Of a DNA stretch of 64,000 bases, positions 23,544-24,816 are shown piece after piece (the stretch's first letter is position 1; every line of letters begins with the position of its first letter). Source of the stretch: Oribacterium parvum ACB1 (GTDB lineage: Bacteria > Bacillota > Clostridia > Lachnospirales > Lachnospiraceae); assembly GCF_000238055.2 (NCBI RefSeq), contig NZ_KE148312.1:1670501-1734500 (forward strand), given 5' to 3'. The position numbers and the translations under genes are program-made. The notes below the pieces were generated by a model, which ran no database searches, had not been told where the DNA came from, and worked only from the letters and a program-made list of their open reading frames with translations.

Positions 23544-23560
23544 TAAAATCAAAACTTCTT

Positions 23561-23699
23561 TATACTGTGAAGGTCCGTTGCAGGGCACGCTCTCGCTAAC
23601 CTCGCCACGTAGGGGATACTAAGCGAAAAACAGCATTTCATTTGTTTTTCGCAAGTACCCACGGGCTCAGATTACCCTGCAACGGACCTCCACAGTATA
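23561..23699 (+). repeat. Long-stem hairpin element, copy 1
   Basis: Terminal arms of 25 bases (23561-23585 and 23675-23699) pair with one mismatch. Inside, GCGAAAAACA pairs with TGTTTTTCGC as a second stem. The core carries GCTCTCGCT, TACTAAGC and GCAAGTACC, which recur in the same order in copy 2 (24506-24648, minus), although the outer arms are unrelated. It lies between dapF and deoC in a 254-base spacer with no gene. Confidence 0.85.
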
Positions 23700-23710
23700 A
23701 AAATGGTATC

Positions 23711-23734
23711 TTTGATTTTTTTACAGCCCCTTTT
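23711..23734 (-). repeat. Half copy of a shared terminator sequence
   Basis: On the minus strand it reads GGGGCTGTAAAAAAATCAAA, nearly the same as the left arm of the pgi terminator (56957 onward) and that at 60250. Here the matching second arm is missing. Confidence 0.5.
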
Positions 23735-23797
23735 CTGCTAACGCCCTTTTTCTATGTAAGAGTCTCGCTTGAATTAAATTTCATACATATTTCAAGC

Positions 23798-24433
23798 TTA
23801 GAGCAGAAGCAGTCCGTTTCCGACTCCCAGTCTGTCCGCACCGGCAGCGAGAAGTTCTTCCGCAAACTCCCTGCTTCTGATTCCACCGCTTGCCTTAATC
23901 TGCATCTTATCTGAAACGGATTCTTTCATGAGCTTCACATCTTCCACAGTGGCTCCTCCTGTAGAAAATCCGGTAGAGGTTTTTACAAAGTCTGCACCGG
24001 CTTCTTCGGAAAGCGCGGAGGCTTTTTTGATTTCTTCTTTTGTAAGGAGGCAGGTTTCGATAATAACCTTTACGATAGCCGGCTTGGAAGCTTCTACCAC
24101 AGCTTTGATATCTTCTCTTACATAGTCATAGTCCTTGTCCTTCAAGGCTCCAATCTGAATAACCATATCCACTTCGTCGGCACCGTCCGCTACAGCCTGT
24201 TTTGCTTCAAAAGCCTTTGCCTTTGTAGACATCGCTCCCAAAGGAAAGCCCACCACACAGCAGGTCTTTACACCGGAGCCGGAAAGAGCCTTCGCAACGA
24301 GCGGAACATAAGAAGTGTTAACGCAAACCGAAGCAAAATGATTTGCCTTTGCTTCCTCGCAGTAGCGGAGAATACTGTCTTTCCCTGCCTCCGCCTTTAA
24401 CATCGTGTGGTCAATTTTTTTTGCAATATCCAT
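23798..24433 (-). CDS. deoC: Deoxyribose-phosphate aldolase
   Basis: Splits 2-deoxyribose-5-phosphate to glyceraldehyde-3-phosphate and acetaldehyde, the last step of deoxynucleoside breakdown; deoB and the nucleoside phosphorylase are elsewhere in the window (42-44 kb). 211 residues, the short bacterial form. The Schiff-base Lys151 in VKTSTGF and the DEVDMV segment are present. TAAGGAGG precedes the ATG. The gene sits alone, between two related long-hairpin elements in opposite orientation. Confidence 0.96.
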
Positions 24434-24505
24434 AGCTCCTCCTTATAAATGATACTTTTGTTTTAACAAAATGCAGTAAAAATGAAAGCAATATTTCCTA
24501 AAGAA

Positions 24506-24648
24506 AAATTCTCCCGATATTAACTCAGACAAAGCGTGTGGAGACGCCGGCACTTGCAGCTTTCGAGCAAAGCGAAGAAAGATGCTTAGTACCGCTGCGT
24601 CGTAACCGAGCGAGAGCGCCTTTGGAAGAGTCAATATCGGGAGAATTT
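24506..24648 (-). repeat. Long-stem hairpin element, copy 2 (minus orientation)
   Basis: 21-base arms (24506-24526 and 24628-24648) pair with one mismatch. Read on the minus strand, its core has GCTCTCGCT, then GGTACTAAGC, a small stem and GCAAGTGCC, matching copy 1. The arms (AAATTCTCCCGATATT type) do not match copy 1. It lies upstream of deoC. Confidence 0.85.
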
Positions 24649-24667
24649 AACTATATTCAATTGAATG

Positions 24668-24816
24668 AGGACGACTTTCCTGATGGAAGGTTCGTCCTTT
24701 TCACTTCGTTGACTGAGCGTGGACTTGTAGTCCACCGCTCACTTTGCTCCGCAAAGCAAGTCCCTGCAGGCCTTGGTCTTGTACAGGACGACTTTCCTGA
24801 TGGAAAGTTCGTCCTT
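24668..24816 (-). repeat. Pair of 32-bp hairpin repeats after the activase gene
   Basis: Near-identical 32-base units at 24668-24699 and 24785-24816 (31/32). Each folds on itself: AGGACGA and CTTTCC pair with GGAAAG and TCGTCCT. Between them lie the hairpin GAGCG..CGCTC (24715-24740) and a smaller TTTGC/GCAAA hairpin. The second unit begins at the TAA of the activase gene. No T-run follows, so these may protect the mRNA 3' end rather than terminate. The whole 24434-24814 spacer is made of these elements and copy 2. Confidence 0.8.

Follow-up and report, generated by a model that had tools for sequence, protein, structure and literature searches.

The two long hairpins that flank deoC in the genome of Oribacterium parvum belong to a family of structured elements, which we read as probably being, on balance, a small, non-coding and non-autonomous dispersed palindromic repeat of the Lachnospiraceae, with a head that is moved or maintained as a folded DNA strand. 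Here we present the copy number and distribution of this family, its structure, the co-variation of its arms in place, and the inverted doublets formed by neighbouring copies. If this reading holds, a repeat missing from Rfam would be present in over a third (113 of 298) of the genera sampled from the Lachnospiraceae, a main family of gut bacteria that also includes oral ones, with dozens to more than 100 copies in several genomes, and the covariance model used here would make many long unexplained intergenic hairpins of the Lachnospiraceae annotatable.

The window, a stretch of 64 kb of the O. parvum chromosome that was analysed at its full length, contains one copy on the plus strand (23559-23701), which follows dapF, and one on the minus strand (24499-24655), where it lies downstream of a gene for a BadF/BadG-type ATPase on that strand (genes were assigned by Pfam). 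As the original prediction had it, the two hairpins stand in opposite orientation on either side of deoC, and the outer stems of the two copies are unrelated to each other. The arms measure 27 nt (96%) in the plus copy and 36 nt (81%) in the minus copy. Against 200 shuffles, RNA folding gives z = -11.4 for the plus copy and z = -7.0 for the minus copy. A scan that moved along the 64 kb in steps of 5 bases, each time comparing the 45-nt ends around the 55-nt centre of a 145-nt segment, places the pair as the two best long inverted arms of their size (24.5 and 19.0, each in its own register), and the next unrelated place scores 11.0. The features of both copies are collected in Table 1.

Table 1. 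Features of the two hairpin elements in the window, in order of position.
Feature	Position	Strand	Basis
Left arm (P1, 5' side), A-type	23559..23585	+	inverted repeat I2, 96% over 27 nt with 23675-23701
Mini-hairpin P3, CGCTCTCGCT, stem GC/GC, loop TCTC (other strand GAGA)	23588..23597	+	nearly invariant in own-genome alignments
Long hairpin P2, A-type core; conserved TACTAAGC / GCAAGTACC around AA/A internal loop; AG bulge	23604..23666	+	folding, covariation
Right arm (P1, 3' side), A-type	23675..23701	+	inverted repeat with 23559-23585
Right outer end TTTTACAGCCCC, then T-run; common to other A-type copies	23719..23730	+	sequence
Arm (3' side in element orientation), B-type	24499..24534	-	inverted repeat I1, 81% over 36 nt with 24620-24655
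Long hairpin P2, B-type core	24543..24601	-	folding, covariation
Mini-hairpin P3, B-type, AGCGAGAGCG on + strand	24609..24618	-	own-genome alignments
Arm (5' side in element orientation), B-type	24620..24655	-	inverted repeat I1

Taken alone, the similarity between the cores of the two window copies appears modest: the best local alignment of both whole elements lies in the core and has a score of 29, which is reached by 5 of 1000 dinucleotide shuffles. This modest score speaks for chance, or for ordinary terminator hairpins with unrelated centres, an explanation that is extremely improbable and is refuted by the further copies. The search with a covariance model that had been proposed as a check was run on the genome itself and on relatives: a model built from 25 own copies (R1) finds 58 matches in the O. 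parvum genome, and matches in 113 of the 299 sampled Lachnospiraceae genomes, in a family scan that used stricter filters and scored at most 12 matches per genome. At the level of plain similarity, blastn within the own genome returns 48 pieces with the first element (its own arms included) and 14 with the second, from which 55 core starts were extracted at 54 places, one of these being composite. The window copies represent two subtypes of one family, A having the core of the plus copy and B that of the minus copy. At L041 (G000:C1:199684-199856), a composite, one A-type element is seemingly inserted in the P2 region of another.

Read in its own orientation, an element consists of an arm, the mini-hairpin CGCTCTCGCT, a linker, the long hairpin P2 with its AG bulge and internal loop (TACT-AA-GC / GC-A-AGTA), another linker, and the second arm. 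Across the sets in which copies with enough flank and arm score could be measured, median spans are 137-212 nt, and in fourteen A copies an extra block of about 110 nt with hairpins of its own sits at one linker point. Beside the B copy (window 24660-24816) lies a further repeat, about 110-150 nt long, which has several hairpins and ends in GTACAGGACAACTTTTCTGATGAAAAGTTTGTCCTT; it recurs as the block in those 14 A-type copies, where it stands at a fixed point (e.g. L021, L043, L046-L051), and may be an independent structured repeat.

The ends of the two window copies had been taken to differ, and for the arms this holds; further out than the ends first assigned, however, 24 of 41 A-type copies share both GGGGCTGTAAAA and TTTTACAGCCCC (at most 3 mismatches each), with the right one alone in 6 and the left one alone in 3, against a background for the left motif of 36 in 1100 shuffled 95-mers. 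The shared outer ends occur in 0 of 14 B-type copies. At the A copy of the window the left partner was not found, its place being occupied by the stop region of dapF, and by eye no direct repeats were seen beside the shared outer ends. In the own genome many A copies end in GGGGCTGT...ACAGCCCC and then T, and many are enclosed by a terminator-like outer stem with a T-run, at which transcription may end.

That the element is structured and keeps its centre, as originally proposed, is borne out by alignments and covariation. In the alignment of the 25 own copies, pairing holds in 88.1% of cells and two-sided change is seen in 25 of 31 pairs; of 500 shuffles, none does as well in four of the five measures, and 115 do so in the remaining one, the count of further pair types. 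The 58 copies from relatives, whose rows were aligned to the covariance model and so favour its own structure, pair in 94.0% of cells and show two-sided changes in 29 of 31 pairs, with 0 of 500 shuffles as high in four measures and 3 of 500 in the fifth, while structures slid along the alignment pair in 33-43%. Support for the mini-hairpin is slight, because the P3 stem does not vary in own copies and changes in few relatives (T-A replaces the inner C-G in 5 of 58).

The original prediction had also suggested a structured RNA, of which the structure stands; the covarying pairs, however, are nearly all Watson-Crick, which fits a DNA hairpin or pairing on both strands better. In the 58 copies, rows chosen by the model, the covarying cells comprise 1560 Watson-Crick, 39 G-T and 22 A-C: the inner helices contribute 956, 19 and 7, with 13 of the 19 G-T cells at one pair, and the arms 604, 20 and 15. 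The G-T share is 2.4%, versus 7.9% in the acceptor and T stems of 15 tRNAs (p = 0.0004, with cells that are not independent). At individual pairs T-A exchanges with C-G (30:27) or G-C with A-T (24:24), with no G-T, and of the single changes in orthologous arms 48 produce G-T and 34 A-C, which are not clearly different. Since G-T is rare and G-T and A-C are about equally frequent, pairing that acts on DNA, or on both strands, would fit these sequences better than pairing in one RNA strand, and the repeats are probably selected as folded DNA. One core pair is T-G in 13 of the 58 copies and C-A in none, a possible hint that the strand read here is the one that folds. The loop of the mini-hairpin is TYNC in 56 of 58 copies and TATC in the other 2, and on the other strand it reads GNRA; this GNRA loop would suggest that an RNA is the reverse strand, an idea countered by the T-G without C-A at the one core pair.

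The position of the copies relative to genes, established with simple ORF calls and after leaving out 4 of 184 model matches that were weak or cut, bears on the same question. An upstream gene was called for 53 copies of the own genome, and 42 of these stand behind a gene that reads in their own direction (p = 2e-5), as do 10 of 12 in O. sinus; the wider family is weakly polar, at 63:51 and 18:11. Among 152 elements with genes called on both sides, summed over four sets, convergent genes flank 42 and divergent genes 11. A fixed place in the 3' UTR, strong in the own genome and weak elsewhere, was rejected as a family rule. Among the copies measured, the right end carries TTTT in 24 of 40 A-type and 2 of 12 B-type copies of the own genome, and elsewhere in 4 of 78 in the sister genomes G335 and G336, 10 of 123 in named loci and 6 of 27 in family loci; insertion into terminator loops was likewise rejected as a general rule, T-runs after the right arm being common in own A-type copies alone.

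Neighbouring copies are arranged in a consistent way. Of 41 such neighbours at most 700 nt apart, 40 stand in (+,-) order (all 30 in the G335/G336 loci and 10 of 11 elsewhere), a count from which 4 of 85 matches were also left out and whose members are not independent, some G335/G336 loci being the same orthologous site in both species. The strands of the genes around such doublets are mixed, and most copies in the own genome are single. The window pair is in the same (+,-) order, and may be a coincidence because it encloses deoC and joins an A copy with a B copy.

It is against these observations that a cis-acting structured RNA of mRNA 3' regions has to be weighed, which would be transcribed with the upstream gene and act in termination, RNase III processing or stability, its head binding a protein. 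Strong folding and covariation, the excess of own copies past co-oriented genes, the T-runs of own A-type copies and the T-G without C-A at one conserved pair are all what such an RNA would be expected to leave. However, orientation to genes is little fixed across the family, TTTT is infrequent in the other three sets, the inverted doublets would put one copy antisense, and the G-T share is about a third of that in tRNA stems, so that we consider a 3' regulatory RNA doubtful as an account of the family, though a rival to be taken seriously.

Along the O. parvum chromosome, 12 of the 58 copies fall within 80 kb (G000:C1:1180000-1260000, loci L312-L315; binomial p = 3e-7, for a window picked after the data had been seen), and few lie near either contig end; the clustering is possibly a terminus effect. 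Strand use by contig half is 18/18 versus 16/6 (p = 0.11). Two further observations concern the surroundings of individual elements. Several loci, among them L116/L137, downstream of the element, and L219 at about 1980-2150, contain a different hairpin repeat, whose GGGCGACTT..GGAGCCC-like centre precedes T-runs and which varies between sister species. In L160, where some stretches are N, partial tandem duplications of the right half of the element adjoin it.

In the genus Oribacterium, 5 of 17 genomes have matches (58, 133, 8, 4 and 4) and 12 have none, the top count being that of Oribacterium sinus DSM 17245 (G012, Lachnospiraceae). Higher up, a class-wide draw of 291 genomes gives 7 with a match, the own genome included, and all of them are Lachnospiraceae; the sister genomes G335 and G336 hold 123 and 125 matches. 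In a scan of GTDB genomes, most titles among the 80 listed of at least 118 stretches name Lachnospiraceae, Butyrivibrio, Blautia or uncultured Clostridiales. Some others in the list name Muribaculaceae, Bacteroides, Selenomonadaceae or Mogibacterium (L134, L145, L146, L147, L151, L153), at odds with a distribution that is otherwise confined to the family; these few may be mislabelled bins. Among viral contigs, one has the sequence pattern, and there is no model match there. On the element in the window no Rfam family reaches its gathering score or comes close to it, the sole overlap having 19.8 bits versus 90, and none does on 20 loci of relatives searched at a permissive threshold. In the titles and the beginnings of abstracts of open-licence papers, no such Lachnospiraceae element is named, which does not imply that it is unpublished.

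Across genomes the arms have no common sequence, yet they are still complementary, over up to 66 of 67 nt. How this comes about can be followed at orthologous sites, for which the sample consists of G335/G336 and a few other close pairs; the mispaired element L263:601 was left out of the arm-pair test, and the locus pair L128/L184 was dropped because its flanks are not orthologous. Over 1211 arm pairs in 30 orthologous elements, pairing is preserved by 21 double changes, versus 3.6 +/- 1.7 expected when the right-hand changes are permuted within elements, and 0 of 2000 permutations are as high. Double changes that break pairing number 3 versus 3.3 expected, and single changes that break a pair 54 versus 79.7. 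At orthologous elements, here including L263:601, the core has diverged by 6.6% and the flank by 11.7%. Arm pairing is thus maintained in place, either by selection or because one arm serves as template for correcting the other. The proposal that the element captures or copies flanking DNA into both arms was not upheld where it could be examined, since at orthologous sites the arms persist and co-vary.

The strongest point in favour of capture, with one genome per species compared, comes from copies 1161248, 1225315 and 2146766, which agree with the core of the window copy at 98-99% over 95 nt and have unrelated arms. Arms can thus turn over independently of the core, and either the cores are homogenised among copies or the arms are replaced on spread. 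An element that re-makes its arms on moving, by fold-back copying of adjoining DNA or by insertion into inverted repeats, so that new arms surround an old head, would explain these three copies, as well as the near-perfect arms of 66 of 67 nt and the arms that run into the 3' end of a neighbouring gene, e.g. at 1226014 and 1033168. The overlaps with genes, however, come from uncontrolled local alignments, gene conversion of the core would account equally well for the three copies, the outer ends beyond the variable arms are common to many A copies, and orthologous sites show compensation, not replacement; we therefore regard arms re-made on movement as unlikely. We give still less credence to a mobile DNA hairpin that carries its head alone, in which the stem would be rebuilt at each new place as an inverted copy of local DNA, leaving near-identical heads on unrelated, self-complementary arms, the element would multiply as inverted doublets, and the three-way-junction DNA would be recognised by a putative protein.

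Sites with a match in one genome often have none in another. In O. sinus, 7 of 9 regions orthologous to own loci have no match, and L231 has a weak one (E = 8e-5); of the 9, 4 alignments were viewed, and at 725161 the downstream sequence is unrelated. At L229:200-800, where the model match is strong, A-type pieces and a full A copy lie past the same gene end at which own L062:1800-2300 has a B copy with other arms, so the site may have been reused or replaced. Regions from five other species of the genus are without a match in 11 of 11 cases. Between G335 and G336, 12 of 19 orthologous regions have a match, 6 have none and 1 has a weak one; three of the 6 regions without a match do not align past the site, one holds unrelated sequence, and two align on both sides. 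In L263/L294 and L271/L298, arm remnants remain, and because they are kept these sites look like deletions, not empty sites; the suggested comparison of arms with empty target sites thus yields two core-less sister sites that give capture no support. In L294 one copy of a doublet has been lost, one absence (L283/L302) cannot be polarised, and no empty site with a target duplication was seen among the sister-genome comparisons.

The element is a three-way-junction hairpin, made up of long arms whose sequence is free, the mini-hairpin P3, and the long hairpin P2 with its two fixed internal loops. Under the preferred reading of a repeat handled as folded DNA, the conserved head would be the recognition site of a trans-acting protein that moves or maintains the folded DNA strand, and the arms would need pairing alone, in order to present the head. 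Copies would settle between genes, mostly past gene ends, and would be kept for a time until deletion removes them. Such a repeat would be a clean case of a folded strand recognised by its structure rather than its sequence, and a case for asking how inverted arms stay paired without sequence constraint.

Among known systems, the attC sites of integrons are a folded DNA strand with free stem sequence, a fixed structure and few fixed bases; their ends are conserved, and they belong to cassettes handled by the integron integrase. The Lachnospiraceae repeat is like attC in its presumed folded strand, free stem and fixed structure, and differs in its constant head and in copies scattered over the chromosome. 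In behaviour the repeat would best be likened to ERIC and REPIN repeats, with the difference that its head is the constant part. ERIC, NEMIS (Correia) and other MITE-like repeats are described, in part of the text of PMC2229807, as small, non-coding, intergenic, palindromic and dispersed, the NEMIS being about 107 and 155 bp long with an optional internal block in some. They have similar sequence along the element and, for most of those tabulated in that part (PMC2229807), terminal inverted repeats, whereas in the Lachnospiraceae repeat the head is constant and includes a covarying three-way junction, and the arms are free. REPINs, as outlined in a portion of PMC3116915, are inverted doublets that form a hairpin in single-stranded DNA or mRNA, show compensatory changes and are scattered over extragenic space. 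The (+,-) order of 40 of 41 close neighbours is a likeness to REPINs; the layout is the reverse, since REPINs have conserved REPs at their ends and a spacer that varies (PMC3116915, same portion) and the Lachnospiraceae repeat has a fixed head and free arms. According to that portion of PMC3116915, REPINs are also accompanied by RAYTs, whereas the present repeat is not tracked by transposases with a Y1 domain.

This last difference rests on PF01797 (Y1), which matches in 62 of 113 element-bearing and 113 of 186 element-free genomes (p = 0.33); a Y1 transposase was therefore rejected as a tracking partner. In 51 of the 113 element-bearing genomes, some of them incomplete, a PF01797 match is missing, and the 4 matches in the own genome are putative RAYTs at most. 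The abiF RNA of type III toxin-antitoxin systems, as far as it is characterised in part of PMC12373285, was ruled out, since PF07751 (Abi_2) has no match in G000 (O. parvum) or G012, the two richest of the 17 genomes of the genus. By eye, in the first 60 residues of the 63 ORFs in the densest 80 kb of the own genome, the genes look ordinary and no mobiliser was seen. The repeat also raises the question of which protein mobilises elements of this kind in genomes that show no Y1 transposase. The ORFs that lie between neighbouring copies, likewise inspected by eye, are mostly ordinary genes; in a single case, at L139:2420-3424, a gene of the phage integrase family (PF00589) lies between two copies that are 3 kb apart in (-,+) order, and it offers a lead towards a recombinase that would act on folded DNA.
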